Shown: positions 35,298 through 46,469 of the stretch, one piece after another
Layout: each line of letters starts with the position of its first letter
How positions within the stretch are numbered: position 1 is the stretch's first letter
Origin: Amycolatopsis sp. cg9
Lineage (GTDB): Bacteria > Actinomycetota > Actinomycetes > Mycobacteriales > Pseudonocardiaceae
Reading direction: 5' to 3'
DNA length: 64,000 nucleotides
NCBI RefSeq assembly: GCF_041346945.1
Contig: NZ_CP166850.1
Span: 1,984,001 to 2,048,000, forward strand
Notes under the pieces: model-generated
Databases searched by the model: none
Seen by the model: only the letters and a program-made list of their open reading frames with translations
Told to the model about the DNA's origin: nothing
Translations under genes and position numbers: made by a program

Positions 35298-36317
35298 CTA
35301 ACACCACACCGGGACGGCCGCCGCGAACTGCGGGACGAGCCGCGCGCCGAGGGTCGCCTTCATCTCCGTCATCTTCTTGCCGAACAGCACCGACGCCCGC
35401 CCGTTCGCGATCGCCCAGCGCACCGCCTCGCCGTAGAAGTGGAAGTACAGGTTGGGCCGGCCGCCGTCTTCCGGCGGCAGGGCGCCCCAGTGCCGGGCGA
35501 TCGGCAGGTCCGGGTGGTCGAGCAGGGTGGCCAGCGCGATCAGCCGCCCGGTGCCGGTGTCGCGGTACTCGATCACCGAGACGTCCGGCTGCCGCAGCAG
35601 CGCCGCCAGGTAGCCGGTGAAGTGCGGCAACGGCACGATCGGCACGTCGTGGTGCTTGCGCTCGTTGTACCGCAGCACCTCGGCGACGGCGACCGGGTCG
35701 GCGTCCGCCCCCGGCACGAACCGCACCTCGACCGACGGGTCGGCGTCGAAGGTCCGGAAGATCTTGCGCAGGTTCTGCTTCCGCTTACGAGCCAGCGAGT
35801 TCATCCAGTCGTCGCGGGAGCCGAACGCGGCGACGTCGAGCACCGCGATGTCCTCGGTCCGCCGCACCAGCCGGAACCGGCCGTCGACGGCGGGTACGCC
35901 CGGCTCGCCGACCTGCCGCACCAGCAGCCCGCGGAAACCGCGGCCGAGCTCGGCCCGCATGGCCGGGACGTACGCCTCGAGCAGCTGCGTGACACCGCCG
36001 TCGCCGCCCGCGTCGGCGAACCACCAGCCCGGCTGCGAACCCGCACCGGGGCCGCGGACGTCGAGACCGCCGAACCGGCCGCGGCCCGGGCCGGCGAACC
36101 GGTTCCGCCGCGTCCGGCCGGTGACCCACGCGGCGCTGACCACCCCGCGCGGTTCGGCGCCCTCGCGCAGCACGGTCACCGGTTGCGGGGTCCGCGCGGC
36201 CCAGGCCTGGGTGGCGAGCACCGGCCAGCTCCAGTCGGCGCGGAGCCCGGCCCGCGCGCGCAACGCCGTCCAGTACGCCGGTTCCGCGTCGTGGCGCGGG
36301 TCGAGCACGTCGATCAC
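35298..36317 (-). CDS. GNAT-fold acyltransferase paralogue A (Acetyltransf_6/FemAB-like)
   Basis: This 339-residue protein is the last gene of a five-gene coupled operon and one of four paralogues. It has the shared DPRHDAEPAYW opening. A central helix, RDDWMNSLARKRKQNLRKIFRTF, resembles the basic segment of Acetyltransf_6/BioF2-like GNAT proteins. The closing half reads LRQPDVSVIEYRDTGTGRLIA, LLDHPDLPIARHWGALPP and LYFHFYGEAVRWAIANGR. It differs most from the others at the C-terminus, which lacks the PRPVLGR ending. Related enzymes add amino-acyl or fatty acyl groups to envelope precursors; the true substrate is unknown. GTG overlaps the previous stop by four bases. Confidence 0.8.
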   Translation of the reverse strand: MIDVLDPRHDAEPAYWTALRARAGLRADWSWPVLATQAWAARTPQPVTVLREGAEPRGVVSAAWVTGRTRRNRFAGPGRGRFGGLDVRGPGAGSQPGWWFADAGGDGGVTQLLEAYVPAMRAELGRGFRGLLVRQVGEPGVPAVDGRFRLVRRTEDIAVLDVAAFGSRDDWMNSLARKRKQNLRKIFRTFDADPSVEVRFVPGADADPVAVAEVLRYNERKHHDVPIVPLPHFTGYLAALLRQPDVSVIEYRDTGTGRLIALATLLDHPDLPIARHWGALPPEDGGRPNLYFHFYGEAVRWAIANGRASVLFGKKMTEMKATLGARLVPQFAAAVPVWC

Positions 36318-37357
36318 CACCGCGTCACCGGCCTCGGCACGACCACGCCGGTCATCGGGCTCGGGCTGAACCCCAGCGACGCCTTGAGGTCGGTGACCCC
36401 GCGGCCCAGCGACAGGAACTTCCGGTGGTTCTCGATCATGTGCCGCACTCCCCGCACGACGACGTCGAAGTAGAGGTGTTTCGGCCGGCCGCCGTCCGGC
36501 GGCAGCGCGGCCCAGTGCTGGTGCAGCGGCATCACCGGGTGGTCGAGCAGGTCGGTGAAGGCGAGCAGGCGGCCCTCGGCGTCGTGGTAGGTCGTGGTGA
36601 CGACGTCGGGGCGGCGGACCAGCTCGCCGAGGTACTCGGCGGTGACCGGCCCGCGCTGGTCGAACTTCACCGGCCCCTTGGTCGCGCGGTGGGCCCGCAG
36701 CATCGCCGCCAGCTCTTCGGGGTCGAGGTCGTCCCGCGCGGTGCCCTCGCGGACGACCACCCCGGGGTCGGCGGCGATCTTGCGGATCTGGCCGCGCAGG
36801 CTCGAGCGCCGGTTGCGGCTCAGCGACGCGAGCCAGTCGTCGAGGTCGCCGAAGGTGTTCTCCAGCACCAAAGCGGGCTGGATGGGACGGACGAGCCGGC
36901 CGCGCCCGGCCACCAGCCCGGCGGTGTCCGGGGTGGCCGCGCGGTAGACCACGCCGAGGCAGCCCGGGCCGGTGCGCCGGCAGGCGGCCCGTTCGAACCG
37001 GCGCAGGATCTCGCGGCGCGCGGCGGCGTCGAGCGCTTCGGCGAACAGCCACGCCGGGTAGCACGACAGCCAGGCGTGCTGGACCTCCAGCCAGCGCGGC
37101 GTCCACCGCGCGACGCCGCCGACCGCGCCGGACTCGGCCGAGCCGCCGGGGTGGCACACCATCGCGAGCACGGCGGCGACCAGCTCTTCGCCGTCGCTGA
37201 CGACGGTGAGCAGGTACGGGCTGCGCGAGTACCGCGACTCCGTGCACAACAGGCCGTAGTCCCAGGTCAGCGGCGCCTGCTGGGCCTCGAGGAAGGCGGC
37301 CCAGCCGGCGGGTTCGGGATCGGTGCGCGGGTCGAGCACCCGGACGGTCCAGGTCAT
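36314..37357 (-). CDS. GNAT-fold acyltransferase paralogue B
   Basis: This 347-residue protein shares the operon's conserved pattern: DPRTDPEPAGWAAF at the start, LTWDYGLL, SCYPAWLF, GPGCLGVVYRA, DDWLASLSRNRRSSLRGQIRKI in the middle, LDPEELAAML, LVRRPDVVTTTYHDAEGRLLA, LLDHPVMPLHQHWAALPPDGG and a PRPV ending. The duplicated alpha/beta layout suggests two GNAT lobes, as in FemX. ATG overlaps the previous stop as ATGA. No signal peptide or membrane helix is seen, so it acts in the cytosol, probably on a lipid- or carrier-bound precursor at the membrane face (inference). Confidence 0.8.
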   Translation of the reverse strand: MTWTVRVLDPRTDPEPAGWAAFLEAQQAPLTWDYGLLCTESRYSRSPYLLTVVSDGEELVAAVLAMVCHPGGSAESGAVGGVARWTPRWLEVQHAWLSCYPAWLFAEALDAAARREILRRFERAACRRTGPGCLGVVYRAATPDTAGLVAGRGRLVRPIQPALVLENTFGDLDDWLASLSRNRRSSLRGQIRKIAADPGVVVREGTARDDLDPEELAAMLRAHRATKGPVKFDQRGPVTAEYLGELVRRPDVVTTTYHDAEGRLLAFTDLLDHPVMPLHQHWAALPPDGGRPKHLYFDVVVRGVRHMIENHRKFLSLGRGVTDLKASLGFSPSPMTGVVVPRPVTRW

Positions 37358-38412
37358 CGGCCCAGCACCGGCCTCGGCGCGGCCACCGAGAACAGGCTTC
37401 GCGTGCCGAAGCCCAGCGCCTGCTTCTCGGGCAGCATCGCGCGGCCCGCGGTCAGCTCCGGCCGTCCAGCGGCGATCATGTGGGCCACGCACCGGGCGTA
37501 GCAGTCGACATAGAGACCCTTCCGGCCACCGTCGGCGCTCGGGAGCGCGGCCCAGTGGTGCACCGCCGCGCCGTCCGGGTGGTCGATCATCGTGTTGAAG
37601 CCGAGCAGCCGGCCGTCGCCGGCGCGGTAGGTGCGGGTGACGACGTCCGGCCGCCGGACGAGCGCGTCGAGGTAGGCCGGCGCGATCGGGCTGCGGGTGT
37701 CCAGGTGCAGCCCGCCGACGCGCGACCGCTGGCCGCCGGCCCACGCGCGGTCGTCCTGCCGCGCGCGGTGGGCGTTGAGCAGCACGGCCAGCTCGTGCGG
37801 ATCGAGGTCGGTGCGCCCGGCCGCCGCTTCCGTGGCGACGTCCGGGTTCAGGTACCGGCGGACGTCCGGCGCGAGCGCCGCCGCCCATTCGTCCACAGTG
37901 GAATAGCGGTTGACCAGCACGGCGGCCGGGTCGATCTCGCGGCTGACCCGCGCCCGGCCTTCCAGTGCCGGGACCAGCTCGGGGTTCATCGCCCGGTAGA
38001 TCACGCCGAGCAGGCCGGGGCCGACGTACTCGCGCAGCGCGCGTTCGAACTGGCGGATCGCCGTGCGCCGGTCAGCGAAATCGTCGTCGAACACGCACGC
38101 CGGATAGCCGCTCAGCAGCGGGAGGTAGACCTCCGCCCAGCGCGGCCGGAACCGGCCACCCGACACCGGCCCGAACGTGCCCGCGCCCCAGCCCCGGCAC
38201 ACCATCACCGACAACGCACCGACGACCAGCGAGCCCTGCCGGACCACGGCGAGCACCGGCGGGTTCTTCGCCAGCCACGCCTCGCGGCGCAGCAGCTCGT
38301 AGTCCCACACCGGCGGCAGGCACCGCGCCCGGAACGCCGCCCAGCCTTCCGGCGGCGGGTCGACGCGGGGGTCGTGGACGTCCACTTGCGACACGGCGAC
38401 GACGGTCTTCAC
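37354..38412 (-). CDS. GNAT-fold acyltransferase paralogue C
   Basis: This 352-residue paralogue has DPRVDPPPEGWAAF, WDYELLRREAW, LSGYPACVF, GPGLLGVIYRAMNPEL, DEWAAALAPDVRRYL, DLDPHELAVLL, LVRRPDVVTRTYRAGDGRLLG and DHPDGAAVHHWAALPSADGG. The central basic RNRR helix seen in B and D is replaced by a much less basic APDVRRYLNPDVAT, so catalysis or substrate choice may differ. GTG start overlaps the stop of D (GTGA) and its stop overlaps the start of B (ATGA). Confidence 0.78.
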   Translation of the reverse strand: MKTVVAVSQVDVHDPRVDPPPEGWAAFRARCLPPVWDYELLRREAWLAKNPPVLAVVRQGSLVVGALSVMVCRGWGAGTFGPVSGGRFRPRWAEVYLPLLSGYPACVFDDDFADRRTAIRQFERALREYVGPGLLGVIYRAMNPELVPALEGRARVSREIDPAAVLVNRYSTVDEWAAALAPDVRRYLNPDVATEAAAGRTDLDPHELAVLLNAHRARQDDRAWAGGQRSRVGGLHLDTRSPIAPAYLDALVRRPDVVTRTYRAGDGRLLGFNTMIDHPDGAAVHHWAALPSADGGRKGLYVDCYARCVAHMIAAGRPELTAGRAMLPEKQALGFGTRSLFSVAAPRPVLGR

Positions 38413-39440
38413 CGGCCCAGCACCGGCCTCGGCACGGCGGCCGTGTAGACCGGCCGGGGCCGGAACCCCAGCTCCTGCTTCAGCTCGATCATGCCGCGGC
38501 CGGCGGACAGCTCCCGGGCTCCGCGCTTCGCGGTGAAGCGCACCGCCCGCACGTACGAGTCGAAGTACAGCCACTTCTTGCCGCCCGCGGCCGGCGGCAA
38601 CGCCGCCCAGTGCTGCAGGACGGGGGTGTCCGGGTGGTCGAGCATGGTCTGCACGGCGATCAGCTTCCCGCCGGTGTCGGCGTAGGTCAGGGTGTGCACG
38701 TCCGGCCGCCGGACGAACCGGTCGAGGAAGCCCGCCGACGGCATCGTGCGGGTGTCGAGCGCCAGCCGCCCGTACCGCTCGCGGTGCGCCTGGATCAGCC
38801 CGGCCAGTGCGGCGCCGTCGAGGTCGGTGCGGCCCGGTCCGCCGCGGATCACCAGGGAGGGGTCTTCGGCGAGCCGGCGCCGCTGCCGCCGCAACCCGGC
38901 CCGCCGCGACTTCGACAGCGACGCGATCCAGTCCTCTTCGGACTCGAACCGGTTTTCCAGCACCGCCACCGGGTCCACGCGCTTGACGAGCCGGCCGCGC
39001 CCGCCGAGGCCGGTGGCGAGGTCCTCGCCGAGCGCGCGGTGGACCACGCCGAGCAGGCCGGGGCCGAGGCGGCGGCCCAGTTCCCGCTCGAACCGCCGCA
39101 CCAGCGCCGCGCGGTCGGGCACCCCCGGGGCGAACGCGATGCCCGGGTAGCCGCTGAGCCACGGCTGGCAGACCTCGGCCCAGAACGGCCGCAGCAGTCG
39201 CTTCCCCGGCCGCGGCGCGAACCGCGGGGCCAGCCGGGGCCGGCAGACCAGCACGGACGCCGCGGCGACGAGGTCGTCCCCGTCGGCCGCGACGACCAGC
39301 AGCTGCGGGTTGCGGGCGCCCCAGGCTTCGAGGCCCATCACCCCGTAGTCCCACACCGGGTGCAGCCGCGCGGCCCGGGAGAACTCCGCCCAGCCCGCGG
39401 GCGCCGGGTCGGCGCGGGGATCGTGGAACGCGAACCTCAT
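38409..39440 (-). CDS. GNAT-fold acyltransferase paralogue D
   Basis: This 343-residue protein, first of the four paralogues, has DPRADPAPAGWAEF, WDYGVMGLEAW, LSGYPGIAF, GPGLLGVVHRAL, EDWIASLSKSRRAGLRRQRRRL, DLDGAALAGLI, FVRRPDVHTLTYADTGGKLIA, LDHPDTPVLQHWAALPP and a PRPVLGR ending shared with C. The strongly basic central helix fits the Acetyltransf_6 core. ATG overlaps the stop of the unknown upstream gene by four bases. Confidence 0.8.
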   Translation of the reverse strand: MRFAFHDPRADPAPAGWAEFSRAARLHPVWDYGVMGLEAWGARNPQLLVVAADGDDLVAAASVLVCRPRLAPRFAPRPGKRLLRPFWAEVCQPWLSGYPGIAFAPGVPDRAALVRRFERELGRRLGPGLLGVVHRALGEDLATGLGGRGRLVKRVDPVAVLENRFESEEDWIASLSKSRRAGLRRQRRRLAEDPSLVIRGGPGRTDLDGAALAGLIQAHRERYGRLALDTRTMPSAGFLDRFVRRPDVHTLTYADTGGKLIAVQTMLDHPDTPVLQHWAALPPAAGGKKWLYFDSYVRAVRFTAKRGARELSAGRGMIELKQELGFRPRPVYTAAVPRPVLGR

Positions 39441-40195
39441 GCCAGGACGACCGGGGTGCCGTGGCGCGGGCAGAACGCGATCTCGCCGGGTACCCCGCCG
39501 GCCGGGACGACGTCCACGAACCGCGGGGAAGCCTGGCGCAGCAACGTGAACGCGAGGCCGCCGGCCGTCTGCCGCGCGTAGACGTGCGGCCAGTCGAGGT
39601 GCCACCGCCCGCAGTCGCCCAGCGCGCCGAGGTACCCGAGCACCGGGTCGTGCAGCACGCCGTACGGACCGGCGTCCAGCGAGTCGAGTTCGCGGTGCGG
39701 CACGGCCTCGACGCGGTGGTCCTCGGTGAACGCCGCGATCGCCTTGTCGTCACCGACGGCGAGCACGCGCCGACCCCGGTTCAGCACGGCCGCGACCTCA
39801 CGCAGCACCGACGTGCTCGGCGCGTCCGGATCGGCGACGCAGCCCCGCACCCCCTTCGGCAGGTCGGCCGGCGGGCGCAGGTCGTCGGGTCCCAGCAGGA
39901 CGACCAAGCTGCCGGGACCGGGACGGCGGGCCGTCCGCAGGACCCGCCCGAGCCCGCGCGCCGGCTCGGGCCGCCGGGCGCCACCGGCGAGCGGCACGAG
40001 GTCGACCAGTTTGCGCACGGCTTCCGCGAGGGGTACCGCGCCGCCGTTCGTCCCGGTGCGCCCCGGCACCACGACCGGGTCCTCCCGGCCGTCGAGCGCC
40101 CAGTGTTCGCGGTAGAACGGCACCGTCGCGAACGCCGAGCGCACCGCCCGGACGTAGGCGGCACGCCACACGACCCCCGCCCCCAGATTCCACAT
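39437..40195 (-). CDS. Unknown 252-residue protein, first gene of the acyltransferase operon
   Basis: I do not recognise this gene with confidence. Its N-terminus, WRAAYVRAVRSAFATVPFYREHW, looks like the opening helix of PaaK-type CoA ligases. The end, RFVDVVPAGGVPGEIAFCPRHGTPVVLA, is reminiscent of the strand before their hinge. The ATP-binding Ser/Gly-rich motif of an adenylating enzyme is absent and the length is about half, so it may be a degenerate adenylate-forming relative or something unrelated. It has no membrane segment. It is coupled to paralogue D by ATGA and faces the divergent glycosyltransferase operon. Confidence 0.6.
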   Translation of the reverse strand: MWNLGAGVVWRAAYVRAVRSAFATVPFYREHWALDGREDPVVVPGRTGTNGGAVPLAEAVRKLVDLVPLAGGARRPEPARGLGRVLRTARRPGPGSLVVLLGPDDLRPPADLPKGVRGCVADPDAPSTSVLREVAAVLNRGRRVLAVGDDKAIAAFTEDHRVEAVPHRELDSLDAGPYGVLHDPVLGYLGALGDCGRWHLDWPHVYARQTAGGLAFTLLRQASPRFVDVVPAGGVPGEIAFCPRHGTPVVLA

Positions 40196-40468
40196 GGCCG
40201 GGGAGTCTGCGCCACCGACCGGCCCGCGGGGAAGGACTTGGCCGTCAGGTCACCCCAAATGCCGGATAGGTTACTACTTTGGTCTGGGTCTGAACGGTGG
40301 AATTCGTAGAACTACCGTCGCCGTTCCCCGATCCGTCTGCTTATAACTCCCGCCACACCGCAATCGGCAAGCGGTCTTACCGGATCCGGCTGGGGGATTC
40401 ATGATCACAATTCACACTGTCGGTGACCGCGCGGACACGAATTCGACACACCGACCTGAGCAGCACAG
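40196..40468. promoter_or_regulatory. 273-base divergent promoter region of the two envelope-cluster operons
   Basis: This region is clearly richer in A/T than its neighbours (for example 40250-40340 and 40390-40450) and contains no gene. Visible elements are a CCGGATCCGG palindrome at 40380-40389, GTAG-AA-CTAC around 40306, and several TA-rich -10-like boxes such as TATAAC. One shared regulatory region for both operons suggests joint control. Confidence 0.5.
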
Positions 40469-41479
40469 ATGACCACCCCTTTCCCGGGGCCGGCCCACAG
40501 TGGACTCACCGTAGTCATTCCGTGCTTCAACGAAGTCGAGAACGTCGAACCGTCCTATCGGGAAATAACCAACGAACTAGGCCACTATTCACTGGAACTG
40601 TTTTACGTCGATGACGGGAGCGTCGACGGAACGCTGGACAAGATCCGCGCGCTCGCGGCCGCGGACCCGCGCGTGCGGTACTTGTCCTTTTCCCGGAACT
40701 TCGGTTTCGAAGCGGCTTTCTCGGCCGGCTACCGCTACGCGTCGCAGCCGTGGGTCCTGCACGTCGACGCCGACCAGCAGTTCCCCGCCGCCGAGGCGGA
40801 GAAGCTCGTCGCGGCGGCCGAGCTGGGCAACGACGCGGTGTTCGGCGTCCGCACCAACCGCCAGGACCCGCGGCTGCGGCGGTGGGGCACGGCCGCGTTC
40901 CACTTCCTCGGCCGGCGCGTGCTGCGCATCGAGATCCCGCCGGGCGCCACGGCGTTCCGGCTGGTCCGCGCGGAACTGGCCCGCAAGATCGTCGACCTGC
41001 GGCTCGGCACGCCGTACTTCCTGGCCACGGTCCCCCGGCTGACCAGCCGGTACACCTGCGTCCAGGTCGCGCACCGGGCCCGCGAGCGCGGTGAGTCCAA
41101 AGTGGGCTTCGGGTTCCTGGCTTCGCACGCCATCGAACTCTTCGTCGGGTTCACCCGGCGGCTCACGACAGCGGCGTCCGCGACGGCGTTGCTGGCCGCG
41201 GGGATCGCGGTGCTCGCCGGCGGCGCGGCGGCGTTCGGCCTGCTCGGTGCCGGCGTCACGGCGACGCTGCTGTTCGCGCTGCTCGCGGTGCTCCTGCTGG
41301 TGGCGTCGCTGACCGTGCGCTACCTCGTCGTGGTCGGCGCGGGTCAGCCGCGACCGCGGCAGTTCTACGTCCGGGAAGCGAACGTCGTCGTCGACGCCGA
41401 GGACCGGCTCTTCACCCCGGCGGACCCGGCGGGTCCCCGGCTCATCGATGTGCAACTGGGGAAAGGCGTTTCGGCGTGA
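40469..41479 (+). CDS. GT2 glycosyltransferase, polyprenyl-phosphate type (DPM1/ArnC/GtrB-like)
   Basis: This 336-residue GT-A enzyme uses a nucleotide sugar and probably undecaprenyl or decaprenyl phosphate. Motifs: VVIPCFNEVENV, VDDGSVDGT, SFSRNFGFEAAFSAGYRYA, the metal-binding DADQQFP and an acceptor-side GATAFRLVRAEL. Two C-terminal TM helices (about 234-257 and 261-285) anchor it, as in GtrB. It would make a lipid-phosphate sugar on the cytosolic face. The first part (about 40540-40620) uses A/T-ending codons unlike the rest. It starts a five-gene operon; its stop overlaps the ATP-grasp start (GTGA). Confidence 0.88.
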   Translation: MTTPFPGPAHSGLTVVIPCFNEVENVEPSYREITNELGHYSLELFYVDDGSVDGTLDKIRALAAADPRVRYLSFSRNFGFEAAFSAGYRYASQPWVLHVDADQQFPAAEAEKLVAAAELGNDAVFGVRTNRQDPRLRRWGTAAFHFLGRRVLRIEIPPGATAFRLVRAELARKIVDLRLGTPYFLATVPRLTSRYTCVQVAHRARERGESKVGFGFLASHAIELFVGFTRRLTTAASATALLAAGIAVLAGGAAAFGLLGAGVTATLLFALLAVLLLVASLTVRYLVVVGAGQPRPRQFYVREANVVVDAEDRLFTPADPAGPRLIDVQLGKGVSA

Positions 41480-42717
41480 CGAGTTCGAAGAAGGACCCCG
41501 CGAGAACCCTGGTGATCCTGGGGGGCGCGGACGGTTCGGTCAGCACCTACGAGCGGGCGCGGGAGCTGGGGTTCCGCACGATCTGCGTCGACGTCCGGCC
41601 GGGCGCACCGGCGGTGGCGTACGCGGACGAGTTCCTGCAGGTCAGCGTGCGCGCACCGGAGCAGATCGCGGCGGCGCTGGAGGGCCGCCGCGACCTCGCG
41701 GGCGTGCTCTGCCCGGCCAGCGACGTCGGTCTGCCGGCCCTGGCGTGGCTGACCCGCCACTGGGACCTGCCCGATCCCCTGCCGCAGTACGCGGTGCAGG
41801 CGTCGACGGACAAGTCGGTGTTCCGCGCGCTGTGCGACCACCTGGGCCTGCCGAGCTACCGCAGCGTCGACGGCCGCCCGGGTCCGGAGCTGATCCACGC
41901 GGCCCAGCAGCTGCGCTTCCCCACGCTGGTCAAGCCGGTCGACTCCTCGGGCAGCCGCGGGGTCGTCTCCTGCCCGGGTCCGGGCCGGCTGACCCGGGCG
42001 TTCACCGAGTCGCTCGCGTTCTCGCCGTCCGGCCGCCTGGTCGTGGAGGAGCACCTCGACGGCTCGCACTTCACCATCGAGGCGCTCGTCGTCGACGGCC
42101 GGATCGTCTTCCACGCCGTGACCGAGCGGGTGCTCACGCCGCCGCCGTTCTTCGTGACGTCGTCGCACCTGCTGCCCGCCGAGCTGCCCGCCGACGTCGA
42201 GCTGAGCCTGATCGAAGCCCTCGACCAGATCTGCACCGAGCTCGGCTACCGGACCGGGCCGCTGACGCTCGACGCCGTGCTCGGCCGGGACGGACGGCTC
42301 TACCTCATCGAGATGGGCGCGCGGATGGGCGGCAACGGGCTCGCCGAAGCGATCGCGCACTGCCACGGCGCCGACCTGATCGCGGCCGGGATCGCCGCCG
42401 CCACCGGCGACGAGGTGCGGCTGGACCTGCACGAGCCGAAGCCGACGCTGGTGCACATCCTGGCGTCCGACCGCGGCGGTCACCTGTCGCGAGTGGACGG
42501 TGCCGACGACGTGCGCGCGATGCCGGGCCTGGTCGGGCTGCACCTGTTCGCCGACGAGGGCTCGTTCGTCCGGCCCTACGAGCAGGCGGGGCACAAGCTC
42601 GGGTACGTCGTGCTCACCGCCGGCTCGGTGCCGGAGCTGCTCACCGCGGAGAACGCCGTGCGCGGCACGCTGAAGTTCCTGCTGCACGACCAGGACATGG
42701 CGGTACCCCTGCCGTGA
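41476..42717 (+). CDS. ATP-grasp ligase
   Basis: This 413-residue enzyme has an N-terminal alpha/beta domain (VILGGADGSVSTYERARELG). The ATP-grasp core follows: TLVKPVDSSGSRGV binds ATP, VVEEHLDGSHFTIEALV holds the lid, and LYLIEMGARMGGNGLAEAIA holds the Mg2+-binding Glu and Asn. It resembles L-amino-acid ligase and PurK/biotin-carboxylase-like members that join a carboxylate to an amine through an acyl phosphate. In this operon it most likely forms an amide or dipeptide that decorates the glycoconjugate. It is coupled by GTGA overlaps at both ends. Confidence 0.88.
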   Translation: MTSSKKDPARTLVILGGADGSVSTYERARELGFRTICVDVRPGAPAVAYADEFLQVSVRAPEQIAAALEGRRDLAGVLCPASDVGLPALAWLTRHWDLPDPLPQYAVQASTDKSVFRALCDHLGLPSYRSVDGRPGPELIHAAQQLRFPTLVKPVDSSGSRGVVSCPGPGRLTRAFTESLAFSPSGRLVVEEHLDGSHFTIEALVVDGRIVFHAVTERVLTPPPFFVTSSHLLPAELPADVELSLIEALDQICTELGYRTGPLTLDAVLGRDGRLYLIEMGARMGGNGLAEAIAHCHGADLIAAGIAAATGDEVRLDLHEPKPTLVHILASDRGGHLSRVDGADDVRAMPGLVGLHLFADEGSFVRPYEQAGHKLGYVVLTAGSVPELLTAENAVRGTLKFLLHDQDMAVPLP

Positions 42718-43964
42718 CGGGCTCCTCGGTCACCACCGCACCGGCCGTGGCGGCGCCGCGGCCGGCGGTGGTGCTGCGCCTGCTCGCCGGCCGGGGCGTG
42801 TTCCGGCTGGCGGTCCAGGTGATGGGGCTGGTCCTGATCACGGCGTGGGGCGCCCGCGACTACGGGCGCTTCGCGAACGCACTCGGCTTGATGACCTGGC
42901 TCAACTTCGTGCCGGCCGCGGCGGAGAAATCCGCGTTGAAGAGCCTGCCGCGGCTGCACCGGACCCGGGACGCCGTCGCGGCGCTCGCGGTCCGGCTCGC
43001 CGCGGTGCCGGTGCTGGCGGTGCTGGCCGCGACGGCCGTCGCGCTGGTGGTGGCGCCGCGTTCCGACGCGGCGCTCTACCTGACGGCGGCGGCCTGGTCG
43101 ATCTCCGGCGGGCTGCTGATGACCGTGTCCGGGCTGCACCGGCTGCGCGACAAGTCCGCTTTGGACGCGCTGGCGTTCGCCGCGGGCTCGGTCGTGGTCG
43201 GCGTCGTGACGTGCGTGACGTGGGCGGTGCGCTGGCCTCCCGAGACGCACCTGGCGGTGCTGCTGGGCGGGCTCCTCGTCATCCTCGGCACTTCGGCCGC
43301 CCTGCTGCCGCGTCCGTGGCTGCGCGGGGGCGGGGTGCCGGGCCACCGGTTGCTGCCCGCGTTCGGCCGCAGCACCGTGCTGCTCGGCTTGACCGAGCTG
43401 CTCGACGTCATCTCGACGTCGGTCGTGTTCGCGGTGCTCGCGCTGTCCGGCCGGACCACCGACAGCGGCCCGTTCTACCTGGCGCTGCTGGTGTCCAGCG
43501 CGTTCTGCTCGCTGCTGTACTACCAGCTCAAGCTGCACCAGCCGGCGGCCTCGCGGCGAATGCGCGGCACGGGCGCGGCGGCCGGGCGGGCGCGGGCGGT
43601 TTCCCTGCTGCGGCTGGTCGAGCGAGCCGGGATCGCGGTGGTCGTCCTGCTCGGCGCGGGTCTCGCCATCCCCGGGACCCGCGCCTTGCTCACCGCCGAG
43701 GACGCGTACGTCGTCCTCGGGGTGCTCGTGCTGGTCGAGACGGCGCTGTACGCGACCGGGCTGTACGCGGGCTTCCTCATCGAAAACACCAACAGCAAGG
43801 TGCTGACGCTGACGTCCGGCACCGCCGTCGTCTCGCTCGTCGCCACCGCCGTCGGCGCGGCGCTGCTCGTCCCCGTCCTCGGACCGGTCGGCGGGTTCGC
43901 CGCGCTCGTCCTCGCGCTCGCGGTGAAGGCGGCCGTCCTGCGGCGCCTGGTCCGCCGGCACTGA
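42714..43964 (+). CDS. Wzx/MATE-like flippase (polysaccharide export family)
   Basis: This 416-residue polytopic protein has about 12 hydrophobic helices, starting with LAGRGVFRLAVQVMGLVLITAWGARDYGRFANALGLM, the typical opening of Wzx/MOP-superfamily flippases. A charged loop in the middle is followed by LFLIENTNSKVLTLTSGT-like C-terminal helices. It should move a lipid-linked sugar product from the inner to the outer leaflet. The start is GTG 42714 in a GTGA overlap; the longer frame to 41448 is a shadow of the ATP-grasp gene. Confidence 0.85.
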   Translation: MTGSSVTTAPAVAAPRPAVVLRLLAGRGVFRLAVQVMGLVLITAWGARDYGRFANALGLMTWLNFVPAAAEKSALKSLPRLHRTRDAVAALAVRLAAVPVLAVLAATAVALVVAPRSDAALYLTAAAWSISGGLLMTVSGLHRLRDKSALDALAFAAGSVVVGVVTCVTWAVRWPPETHLAVLLGGLLVILGTSAALLPRPWLRGGGVPGHRLLPAFGRSTVLLGLTELLDVISTSVVFAVLALSGRTTDSGPFYLALLVSSAFCSLLYYQLKLHQPAASRRMRGTGAAAGRARAVSLLRLVERAGIAVVVLLGAGLAIPGTRALLTAEDAYVVLGVLVLVETALYATGLYAGFLIENTNSKVLTLTSGTAVVSLVATAVGAALLVPVLGPVGGFAALVLALAVKAAVLRRLVRRH

Positions 43965-43980
43965 ACCACTGGGAGGAATC

Positions 43981-45780
43981 ATGTACGTACTGGGCATCAG
44001 CCGGGTGCACGACTCGGCGGCGGCACTCGTGCGCGACGGCGAGATCATCGCGTTCGCCGAGGAGGAGCGCTTCACCCGGGTCAAGCACGACGGCGGCTTC
44101 CCCGCCGAGGCCATCAAGTTCTGCCTGGAGCGCGCCGAGATCACCCTGGCCGACGTCGACCACGTCGCCTACTACTGGCAGCGCTGGAAGGAGGGCATCC
44201 ACGCGGCCAAGGTGTTCGCGCGGTACTTTCCCGGCACCCTCGACGTCTTCCGCAACGCCAACGGCGACGAAGGCGGCAAGTCGGCGGGCATGGTCGACAC
44301 CTTCCTCACCGGCGGCGGCCAGGGCCACGACGACTACCACGTGGGCGGCGCGGTCCTGGCGCACATCAAGCGGTCCTACACGCTGGCGAACGACGTCAAA
44401 GCGGCCGTCGGCTGGACCGGGCCGACGAAGTTCAAGACCCACCTGGTCGACCACCACCGCGCGCACGCGGCCAGCGGCTACTTCATCTCGCCGTGGGACG
44501 AGTCGGCCGTGCTCACCTTCGACGGCATCGGCAGCGACGGCACGGCGACCTACCTCGCGCACGGGAGCGGCAACCGGATCGTCGACCTGCGCCGGATCAA
44601 GTTCCCGCACTCGCTCGGCGCGATGTACGCGGGCGTCACGGGCTACCTCGGCTTCTACCCGACCCGCGACGAAGGCAAGATCATGGGACTCGCGCCGCTG
44701 GGCGAGGACACCTACGTCGACGCGTTCAAGCAGCTCATCCACCTCGACGACGACGGCGGCTTCGAGCTGGACCTGAGCTGGTTCGGCCACCACCGCACCG
44801 GCAAGCACGTGATGGCGAAGAAGTTCACCGACGCGTTCGGCCCGGCGCGGCCGAAAACCCGGGTCACGGCTTCGAACCCGGTGCCCCAGCACTATTGCGA
44901 CATCGCGTACGCCCTGCAGGTGACGCTCGAGGAAGCGGGCCTGCACCTGGCGCGGTGGCTGCAGCGCGAGACCGGTTCGAAGCGCTTGTGCGTCGCCGGC
45001 GGGGTGGCTTTGAACAGCGTCATGAACGGGCGGATCCTGCTGGAAACGCCGTTCGAGGACTTCTTCGCCCAGCCCGCGGCGGCCGACGACGGCTGCGCGC
45101 TCGGCGCCGCGCTCGACGTGTCGGTCGCCAAGTACGGCAAACCGCGCCCGCGCGACGGCTACACCTACACCGGCCCGGACTACACCGAGGCCGAGATGGA
45201 ACTGGCCTTGCAGGACGCCGGCGTCGAGTACACCCGCGTCGACGACATCGCAGCGCACACCGCCGCCAAGATCGCCGACGGCAAGATCGTCGGCTGGGTG
45301 CAGGGCCGGATGGAGTGCGGGCCGCGCGCGCTCGGCAACCGGTCGCTCGTCGCCGACCCGCGCGACCCGGAGTCGAAGACGCGGATGAACGAGAAGGTGA
45401 AGCACCGCGAGGCGTTCCGGCCGTTCGCGCCGTCGTGCCTGGCGGAGCGGGCGGGCGAGTACTTCGTCAGCGACTACCCGTCGCCGGTGATGCTGCTGGT
45501 GTTCGACGTCCTGCCGGACAAGCGCGCCGAGGTTCCGGCGATCACGCACGTCGACGGCACCGCGCGGGTGCAGACTGTCAGCCGTGCGGACAACCCGCTG
45601 TACTACCGGATGATCAGCGAGTTCGAGAAGCTGACCGGGGTGCCGATGGTCGTCAACACCTCGTTCAACGACAACAACGAGCCGATCGTGGCCAGCCCGG
45701 CCGACGCGATCGCGTGCTACCTGAAGACCGACGTCGACGCGCTGGCCCTCGGACCGTTCTGGGTGGAGAAGGAACTGTGA
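43981..45780 (+). CDS. O-carbamoyltransferase (NodU/CmcH/TobZ family)
   Basis: This 599-residue two-domain enzyme transfers a carbamoyl group from carbamoyl phosphate, through carbamoyl-AMP, to a hydroxyl group, usually on a sugar. The Kae1-like N-terminal domain has ISRVHDSAAALVRDGEIIAFAEEERFTRVKHD, the metal-binding VDHHRAHAASGYF and LTFDGIGSDG. The YrdC-like C-terminal part has GRMECGPRALGNRSLVADPRD and FRPFAPSCLAER. The length matches TobZ/NodU. GGAGGA precedes the ATG. The sugar acceptor is probably the product of the operon's GT2. Confidence 0.93.
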   Translation: MYVLGISRVHDSAAALVRDGEIIAFAEEERFTRVKHDGGFPAEAIKFCLERAEITLADVDHVAYYWQRWKEGIHAAKVFARYFPGTLDVFRNANGDEGGKSAGMVDTFLTGGGQGHDDYHVGGAVLAHIKRSYTLANDVKAAVGWTGPTKFKTHLVDHHRAHAASGYFISPWDESAVLTFDGIGSDGTATYLAHGSGNRIVDLRRIKFPHSLGAMYAGVTGYLGFYPTRDEGKIMGLAPLGEDTYVDAFKQLIHLDDDGGFELDLSWFGHHRTGKHVMAKKFTDAFGPARPKTRVTASNPVPQHYCDIAYALQVTLEEAGLHLARWLQRETGSKRLCVAGGVALNSVMNGRILLETPFEDFFAQPAAADDGCALGAALDVSVAKYGKPRPRDGYTYTGPDYTEAEMELALQDAGVEYTRVDDIAAHTAAKIADGKIVGWVQGRMECGPRALGNRSLVADPRDPESKTRMNEKVKHREAFRPFAPSCLAERAGEYFVSDYPSPVMLLVFDVLPDKRAEVPAITHVDGTARVQTVSRADNPLYYRMISEFEKLTGVPMVVNTSFNDNNEPIVASPADAIACYLKTDVDALALGPFWVEKEL

Positions 45781-46469
45781 CGCTCTTGGAATCACCCGGC
45801 CTGGTCGCCGCCCTGTACCGGCGGCGGCAGTGGCTGTGGCTGGTCGCCGCCGTCCCGGCGGTGGTCACCACACTGCTGATCATGGTGGTGCTGCCGCCGG
45901 ACCAGACCCTGGACAACGTCGGTGACTGGGCGTTCAAGCTGTGCCCGTTCGTCTTCGCGGTGCTGACGGTGTCGCTGTTCCCGCGCGGGCGCTTCGGACC
46001 GGCGCTGATCGTGTTCGCCGTCTTCGTGTACATGTCCTATTTGGACACCGAGCTGGTGATGCGGGTGCAGGACTTCGCGCGCTCACCCGACCAGGACTTC
46101 CAGCCGGTGTACCAGTTCGAGCTGTTCGTGACGACGTTCATCGTGTTGTTCGCGCTGCTGGCCTACCGCCTCGGCGGCGGCCGGACGGCGAACGTGCTGA
46201 AGGTCGGGATCGCGTCGATCCTGGTGGTCATCTCGGGCGTGAACGACCTGACGTTCTGGGCGCTCAACGACGTCTGGGCGGCGGGTTCGAAGCCGACCGA
46301 GCTGAAGTGGGCGTCGCACATGATCGTGTTCCTCGGCGGGCCGCCGAGCGTGCCGGCCGCGGTGGCGTTCATGGCCGTGCACCTGGTGCTGGCCGCGATC
46401 GTGGTCTGGCTGCCGGTGGGCCGGTGGGTCTCGGTCAGAGTCCGCGGTTCACGGCCTGGAGCTTCGTGA
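45777..46469 (+). CDS. Polytopic membrane protein of unknown function
   Basis: This 230-residue protein has about six TM segments (near 19-41, 51-66, 72-87, 112-131, 140-157 and 185-212). Loops carry conserved-looking DNVGDWAFK, FARSPDQDFQPVY and NDLTFWALNDVWAAGSKPTELKWAS. It resembles no family I can name; the acidic and aromatic loop residues could form an external binding or transfer site. GTG 45777 overlaps the carbamoyltransferase stop by four bases, so it is the fifth gene of the operon. Its end overlaps the convergent TIGR03085 gene by 35 bases. Confidence 0.8.
   Translation: MTLLESPGLVAALYRRRQWLWLVAAVPAVVTTLLIMVVLPPDQTLDNVGDWAFKLCPFVFAVLTVSLFPRGRFGPALIVFAVFVYMSYLDTELVMRVQDFARSPDQDFQPVYQFELFVTTFIVLFALLAYRLGGGRTANVLKVGIASILVVISGVNDLTFWALNDVWAAGSKPTELKWASHMIVFLGGPPSVPAAVAFMAVHLVLAAIVVWLPVGRWVSVRVRGSRPGAS

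Follow-up and report, generated by a model that had tools for sequence, protein, structure and literature searches.

The window, a stretch of 64,000 nucleotides from Amycolatopsis sp. cg9 (Pseudonocardiaceae), carries at positions 35298-46469 ten genes in two divergent operons of five, at the place that an earlier note on this DNA had given (Table 1). Four-base overlaps make up seven of the eight within-operon junctions (that of g4 and g5 is counted as one if g5 starts at the GTG at 36317), the eighth being a 16-base gap between r3 and r4; every one of the ten genes therefore has a close neighbour, rather than nine of the ten as first counted. The starts of g1 and r1 have 273 bases between them. 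Values of dN/dS from 0.04 to 0.31 across all ten genes, in comparison with two relatives, argue that these are real genes under constraint.

Table 1. Genes and intergenic region of the divergent locus (positions in the window).
Feature	Positions	Strand	Description
g1	39437-40195	-	252 aa; predicted shrunken PaaK (AMP-ligase) fold
g2	38409-39440	-	Acetyltransf_6/FemAB_like GNAT, 343 aa
g3	37354-38412	-	GNAT paralogue, 352 aa
g4	36314-37357	-	GNAT paralogue, 347 aa
g5	35298-36317	-	GNAT paralogue, most divergent of the four, 339 aa
Shared divergent intergenic region	40196-40468	no strand	TATAACTC at 40342-40349 and CTGGGGGATTCATGA block
r1	40469-41479	+	GtrB/ArnC-type GT2, predicted polyprenyl-phosphate sugar synthase, 336 aa
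r2	41476-42717	+	ATP-grasp amide ligase with LAL_C2 domain, 413 aa
r3	42714-43964	+	predicted MOP-superfamily (Wzx-like) flippase, 416 aa
r4	43981-45780	+	NodU/TobZ-type O-carbamoyltransferase, 599 aa
r5	45777-46469	+	membrane protein, 230 aa, 7 hydrophobic segments, function not assigned

Seven of the ten proteins have no match in NCBIfam, and its listed matches to r1, r2 and r4 all lie below the curated cut-off; PADLOC gave no match for the five proteins tried, and nothing believable came from PDB sequences when they were searched with profiles of the GNATs, g1, r3 and r5. The part names in the earlier note stand, by sequence or by fold, for the GT2, the ATP-grasp ligase, the carbamoyltransferase and the flippase, and in part for the GNATs.

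In the region between the operons, both elements listed in Table 1 were seen in an alignment of the window with six close relatives, and the palindrome TTATAA is restricted, among 29 sequences (the window and 28 loci), to these same seven. A more widely kept element is TATAAC (pattern TATAAC[TA]C), whose position hardly shifts among the 22 of the 29 sequences that have it and which was not found in the other seven, so that conservation of the region is seen in most, not all, of the set; TATAACWC occurs once in the window, against 0.10 occurrences expected. The shared region, with this conserved element, may be a candidate promoter region for both operons.

At the head of the rightward operon, r1 is a predicted polyprenyl-phosphate glycosyltransferase: it matches PF00535 at 102 bits, its nearest solved relatives are GtrB sll0501 (5ekp) and ArnC, and hydropathy gives it two hydrophobic segments. 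Its neighbour r2 matches PF13535 (46.4 bits, cut-off 27) and PF18603 (LAL_C2; 55.5 bits, cut-off 29.4), with the L-amino acid ligase BL00235 (3vot) as a solved relative. It resembles the ATP-grasp ligases of that type in joining an ATP-grasp to an LAL_C2 domain, but differs from them in being fused head to tail with the GtrB-type GT2 in several lineages. In L009 the fused protein has 744 aa. At least four changes between fused and separate states are forced on a tree that leaves 10 forks open, has three long end branches and carries a warning about long branches meeting; it holds six of the eight fused loci of a first fusion set, L079, 12 out of 14 proteins from a second fusion set, and 23 of the 24 separate entries offered (only part of the separate loci; L022 was dropped for a stop inside the stretch).

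The third gene, r3, encodes a predicted MOP-superfamily flippase that folds like WzxE. Its model (pLDDT 89.9) is of the Wzx/MATE/MurJ type, with WzxE at all of Foldseek ranks 1-5 (rank 1: E 4.1e-07, TM 0.69/0.70). The Wzx/MATE name given to it earlier is upheld by this fold match and finds no believable counterpart in Pfam, none of 18 r3 members matching a Wzx/MATE family at E 1; that “flippase” was a mere guess is rejected, since the fold test supports it.

With r4 the assignment comes from sequence: like the NodU/TobZ/GdmN O-carbamoyltransferases it has both domains over cut-off (PF02543, 203 bits against 24; PF16861, 241.5 bits against 27) and the HHxxH motif, which has a metal-binding role and here reads HHRAH at residue 158, aligned with HHLAH in the decarbamoylnovobiocin enzyme 9s2t. 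Its solved relatives include 9s2t, GdmN and TobZ, and of 13 solved matches 12 belong to this kind of carbamoyltransferase and one is a tRNA threonylcarbamoyl enzyme. What sets r4 apart from these enzymes is that it sits with a GT2, a ligase and a flippase.

The leftward operon is dominated by g2-g5, which do align as the four paralogues described earlier (35-48% identity to g2) and carry the GNAT label unevenly. PF13480 exceeds its cut-off of 22 in g2 (24.4 bits) and in g4 (23.8 bits; 46% to g2) and falls below it in g5 (17.9 bits; 35% to g2), while g3 (48% to g2, in alignment A4) has no Pfam match; g2 also matches PF04339 at 19.7 bits, under a cut-off of 27. Fem enzymes are about 340 aa long, and g2-g5 resemble the FemAB/FemX peptidyltransferases in this length, in a GNAT match in the C-terminal half and in weak PF04339 matches, but not in PF02388 (FemAB), which is matched by none of g2-g5, by none of 27 members and nowhere in the organism's own genome; a Fem-type reaction would therefore rest on PF13480 and the weak PF04339 matches. 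In 35 named loci, GNAT number (matches of at least 450 bases, the fourth GNAT of L010 being cut by a contig end) is four in 17, three in 11, two in six and one in one; g5 is present in 33, the exceptions being L031 and L010, whose contig ends inside g5.

The remaining gene of this operon, g1, is apparently non-catalytic. Its model has a shrunken PaaK-like fold, with the fold of the N-terminal domain present and CxxWH...CxxH as conserved residues. SGTTG and YGxSE, the ATP-binding motifs of PaaK-type adenylate-forming ligases, occur in none of 57 g1 relatives, whereas the PaaK of the same genome carries SSGTTG and YGLSE. The modelled chain ends at the equivalent of residue 323 of PaaK1 (426 residues), so that the C-terminal lid is missing as well; with motifs and lid absent, the reading of g1 as an active adenylase is rejected. 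Comparing its profile with that of the PaaK from the same genome gave no significant relation (P 0.32), and the proposed relation of g1 to PaaK therefore rests on fold. In all these respects g1 departs from the PaaK-family ligases PaaK1, NatL2, AjiA1 and ClxA.

Are the two operons one system? When three weak matches of 26 are dropped for g1 (G136, G093, G147) and one of 24 for the r1/r2 (GT2/ATP-grasp) pair (G063, ATP-grasp part only, E 1e-61), g1, the flippase r3 and the r1/r2 pair are found in an identical 23 of 150 Pseudonocardiaceae genomes. A close r4 (at least 76% identical) is present in 20 of the 23, two of 22 matches being left out at 45-47% identity (G008 and G092), and co-occurrence of g1 with r4 over the 150 genomes has a hypergeometric P of 5e-22, kinship ignored. 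The layout with the carbamoyltransferase is kept in 28 of the 35 named loci, and gene order is retained in most of these 28 while flanks vary: tracked flanking genes adjoin the layout in six, several loci (e.g. L010, L020, L022, L025, L027) being truncated by contig ends so that one flank cannot be judged there. A related layout, with no carbamoyltransferase and with an epimerase beside the GT2 (Pfam check on one such gene), also joins members of both operons, in a different arrangement. It is thus well supported that the two operons are a single co-inherited module in part of the family, and the co-conservation implied by the earlier note is borne out. The reading as two unrelated operons is rejected because of this co-inheritance; that they are independent and merely share a divergent promoter region is very improbable on the same 23 genomes, the order kept despite changing flanks and the related layout, even with L031, which has g1 and a GNAT but no other part of the module.

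The module is patchily distributed. It was found in seven of 46 sampled genera, and the core is absent from 127 of the 150 family genomes, including G015, one of seven of the same genus (the organism's own among the seven). A widely shared actinobacterial pathway is rejected: at E 1e-80 the GT2/ATP-grasp profile matched one of 396 genomes sampled phylum-wide, namely the organism's own. Individual loci vary too: L027 is a canonical locus without r3, and among the canonical loci L016, L025, L027 and L035 an epimerase stands beside the GT2 in one (L035). Carbamoylation is not tied to the core, as in three of the 23 genomes that carry it the carbamoyltransferase search gave no match at E 1e-100, a threshold that sets weaker matches aside.

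Gene content, co-inheritance, a family or fold assignment for nine proteins out of ten and the recurrent r1-r2 fusion are computed; from them we infer every chemical step that follows, the order of the steps, the sugar, its substituents, the acceptor and the role of r5. On balance, the two operons probably work as a single module, inherited together, for making a modified lipid-linked sugar and exporting it; the epimerase beside the GT2 in the related layout speaks for this. In such a pathway r1 would load polyprenyl phosphate, on the inner side of the membrane, with a sugar taken from a nucleotide donor (no sugar-nucleotide gene is among the ten), and r2 would form an amide on the polyprenyl-linked sugar, or make an amide building block beside it. 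The FemAB-like GNATs g2-g5, with the apparently non-catalytic g1, would add further acyl or amino-acyl groups, and r4 would carbamoylate a hydroxyl. The finished lipid-linked unit would then be flipped outward by r3, with r5 either handing it to an envelope acceptor or assisting r1 or r3. Several observations weigh against this reading: neither an outward transferase nor a sugar-nucleotide gene was recognised in the module, most family genomes lack the core, L027 lacks r3, three core genomes are without a close carbamoyltransferase, seven of 29 sequences are without TATAAC, GNAT number varies between loci, and PF02388 finds no match.

Another possibility, which we consider rather unlikely, is that the module yields a small metabolite for secretion, an aminosugar or glycolipid natural product bearing amide and carbamoyl groups, with r3 as a MATE-type exporter of the free compound. 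GdmN, TobZ and the novobiocin enzyme, the solved relatives of r4, act in antibiotic pathways; r2 is of L-amino acid ligase type, the fold search with r3 also matched MATE transporters, and in L031 the g1-GNAT pair lies downstream of an NRPS-like gene. Yet r1 is of the membrane GtrB/ArnC type, the WzxE that fills the five best r3 matches is a lipid III flippase, Pfam pointed to neither a regulator nor a resistance gene in the set of ten, and the module recurs across its genera with its genes constrained.

The nearest known systems are those of three-component extracytoplasmic glycosylation, comprising a polyprenyl-phosphate sugar synthase, a MATE flippase and a GT-C, as in the pentofuranose systems (as set out in the accessible part of PMC11127046). 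They share with this locus the pairing, within an operon, of a synthase-type GT2 with a flippase of the MOP superfamily, and these two form the core of such systems. In a plain version one decorated sugar would be placed on a wall glycan or protein already present, by a GT-C encoded at another site in the genome and with help from r5. This would also accommodate r5: the window's copy has no Pfam match, and distant relatives lie beside a GT2 in six of six loci of another actinomycete family. This version is nevertheless improbable, as neither Pfam nor NCBIfam pointed to a GT-C or any other outward transferase in the ten genes, and the locus has in addition the ATP-grasp ligase (one protein with the GT2 in several lineages), the carbamoyltransferase, four GNATs and the dead PaaK; the accessible part of PMC11127046 mentions no ATP-grasp, GNAT or g1.

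No description of this gene set was found in the literature searched (on the set itself, the wall chemistry of these organisms and PaaK relatives), and the statement of the earlier note that no described cluster has it agrees with the lack of a characterised match there. New are the shrunken PaaK-like fold modelled for g1, lacking ATP motifs; the WzxE-like r3 outside Pfam; and the repeated fusion of GT2 and ATP-grasp. More tentatively, the favoured lipid-linked pathway might represent a new glycoconjugate class, restricted on present sampling to the Pseudonocardiaceae, in which amide formation takes place on or beside the carrier lipid, r1 and r2 act as one machine and repeatedly as a single protein, a dead AMP-ligase partners FemAB-like transferases, and the product is a carbamoylated, aminoacylated envelope sugar. 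If the favoured reading is right, part of an antibiotic-producing actinomycete family would possess an undescribed, constrained lipid-linked sugar pathway; the loading of polyprenyl phosphate with sugar and ATP-grasp amide formation would be joined in one enzyme; and three families without a Pfam name (g1, r3 and r5) would gain a role. Four GNATs and a dead adenylase exceed the needs of a simple sugar donor, an observation that counts against the favoured reading.

The ten genes form two divergent operons in a 10.6-Mb genome, as the earlier note had read them. The leftward genes join by a 4-base overlap at every junction (at g4/g5 if g5 starts at the GTG at 36317), and the rightward junctions are also 4-base overlaps, save for a 16-base gap preceding r4. 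The g1 protein is 96% identical to an Amycolatopsis lexingtonensis protein, and dN/dS is 0.04-0.31 in all ten genes (comparison with L008 and L003, loci in related genomes).

Features of the two operons and their flanks (window positions; flank names by eye)
Feature	Placement	Position	Length
g1	leftward operon	beginning at 40195	252 aa
g2, g3, g4, g5	leftward operon, after g1		339-352 aa
r1 (GT2), r2 (ATP-grasp), r3 (membrane), r4 (carbamoyltransferase), r5 (membrane)	rightward operon	from 40469	
prolyl-oligopeptidase-like, methyltransferase-like genes	upstream flank		
isomerase-like, decarboxylase-like genes	downstream flank		
overlap of convergent isomerase-like gene with r5 3' end (gene call)	downstream	46435-46469	35 bases

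The claim that the operons are one unit now has stronger backing than one window could reveal. A g1 profile search collected 35 named loci, 28 of them with the carbamoyltransferase-bearing (canonical) layout, in Amycolatopsis, Goodfellowiella, Prauserella, Saccharomonospora, Actinophytocola, Actinokineospora spheciospongiae and one MAG. In tblastn searches the full set of ten has relatives in 18 of the 35 loci (including L010, where g5 is cut at a contig end, and L025, where g2 and g3 are relocated to the opposite side); a further 8 loci have relatives of nine genes, and 2 of eight. Because the window's flanking genes adjoin the cluster only in L003-L008 (one flank is hidden by a contig end in some loci), the cluster is kept together while its flanks vary.

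Co-inheritance was followed in 150 evenly drawn Pseudonocardiaceae genomes, the same set serving all four family searches. Matches to g1 occur in 26 (E <1e-80 in 23), to r3 in 23 and to an r1/r2 profile in 24, one weakly; the strong matches mark the identical 23 genomes, in 7 of 46 genera. Carbamoyltransferases reach E 1e-100 in 22 genomes, and those at least 76% identical lie in 20, all within the 23 (g1 vs r4 co-occurrence, P = 5e-22 with kinship ignored). A same-genus genome, G015, has matches to none of the four, and among 396 genomes across the phylum the r1/r2 profile at E 1e-80 matched only the module's own.

The operons also share a putative control region. TATAAC[TA]C occurs in 22 of 29 sequences at a near-constant position, about 140-155 bases before g1 begins; TATAACWC is found once in the 64-kb window, against 0.10 expected. 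Among the window and its six close relatives TGCTTATAACTC does not vary, the block CTGGGGGATTCATGA hardly does, and the element includes TTATAA, elsewhere reduced in symmetry to TATA. Because TTATAA is its own reverse complement, a single element could, judging from sequence, serve both directions in these seven.

The proteins point to a lipid-linked sugar pathway. r1 matches GtrB sll0501 (E 1.6e-21) and also ArnC, and two hydrophobic segments follow its GT2 domain, as is usual in polyprenyl-phosphate sugar synthases of its type. r2 combines ATP-grasp_4 and LAL_C2 domains, its closest solved relatives being 4dim, whose deposited name is phosphoribosylglycinamide synthetase, and BL00235, an L-amino acid ligase; r4 has both NodU/TobZ domains and is closest to the decarbamoylnovobiocin enzyme, GdmN and TobZ. 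In Pfam none of 18 r3 relatives matches a Wzx or MATE family, but in Foldseek the r3 structure model (pLDDT 89.9) has WzxE, the lipid III flippase, at ranks 1-5, followed by MATE and MurJ proteins. g2-g5 are paralogues, and 11 of 27 GNAT members match PF13480 and 6 of 27 FemAB_like (E 0.01). r5 has seven hydrophobic segments and no assigned family (weak UPF0542 match in 6 of 18 members, best E 4e-4).

As a strong prediction rather than a result, r1 would load a sugar onto polyprenyl phosphate, r2 would place an amide on it, the GNATs with g1 would add further groups, r4 would carbamoylate, r3 would flip the product, and r5 would be a transferase or helper. The nearest described scheme, in PMC11127046, joins a polyprenyl-phosphate sugar synthase, a MATE flippase and an outward GT-C; the module has two of these components, with the third not recognised.

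The module's most unusual element is the recurrent fusion of r1 and r2. All eight loci of the A. orientalis group (L009-L015, L033) encode both in a single uninterrupted frame of 744 aa, and L079, of the related layout, has a 760-aa fusion (GT2, ATP-grasp, LAL_C2); a database search gave 14 proteins bearing both parts (741-767 aa). A tree built from 42 GT2 domains, with 10 open forks, three long end branches and a warning of long branches meeting, requires 5 changes of the fused state; well-supported branches force at least 4 of them. This recurrence of fusion or fission argues that the two predicted steps, loading the sugar and forming the amide, directly follow one another or are physically coupled.

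Six loci in Actinokineospora and Labedaea (L029, L030, L032, L034, L036, L037) have a related layout, in which no carbamoyltransferase relative was seen. They retain g1, g5, r3, r5, GT2 and ATP-grasp in a different arrangement (the L032 ATP-grasp falls past the locus end and is visible in L073), with a close g2 in two. By eye, an NAD-dependent epimerase-like gene immediately precedes GT2 in all six (the one checked, in L075 on the contig of L037, was confirmed by Pfam) and a SnoaL-like gene is present in five (one checked); in five there is another g1-like stretch as well as a divergent GNAT. Decorating enzymes thus vary while core parts of both operons co-occur: r1, r2, r3, r5, g1 and the GNATs look like the core, and carbamoylation like a lineage-specific decoration.

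Actinokineospora spheciospongiae apparently has both layouts (L027:5043-9800; L079, G045:C165). Its canonical locus is without r3, and because the sole r3 match in that genome belongs to the related layout, one flippase may serve both. In Actinophytocola xinjiangensis (L031:10001-11835) a lone g1-GNAT pair, with an NRPS-like gene, ABC-like genes and a distant ATP-grasp upstream, stands without other module genes, so the pair seems portable. Elsewhere in Actinophytocola a second ATP-grasp, 43-46% to r2, adjoins r5 (L025:2079-3317, L035:1741-2952). The window's own genome has a second carbamoyltransferase N domain match, remote from the window (G000:C1:6100412-6101368). In another actinomycete family, distant r5 relatives adjoin GT2 (L090:5669-13691; also L091, L092, L093; both found by search) among CofD-like, HAD-like, nucleotidyltransferase-like, GT4-like and flippase-like genes (by eye), another glycan-like locus.
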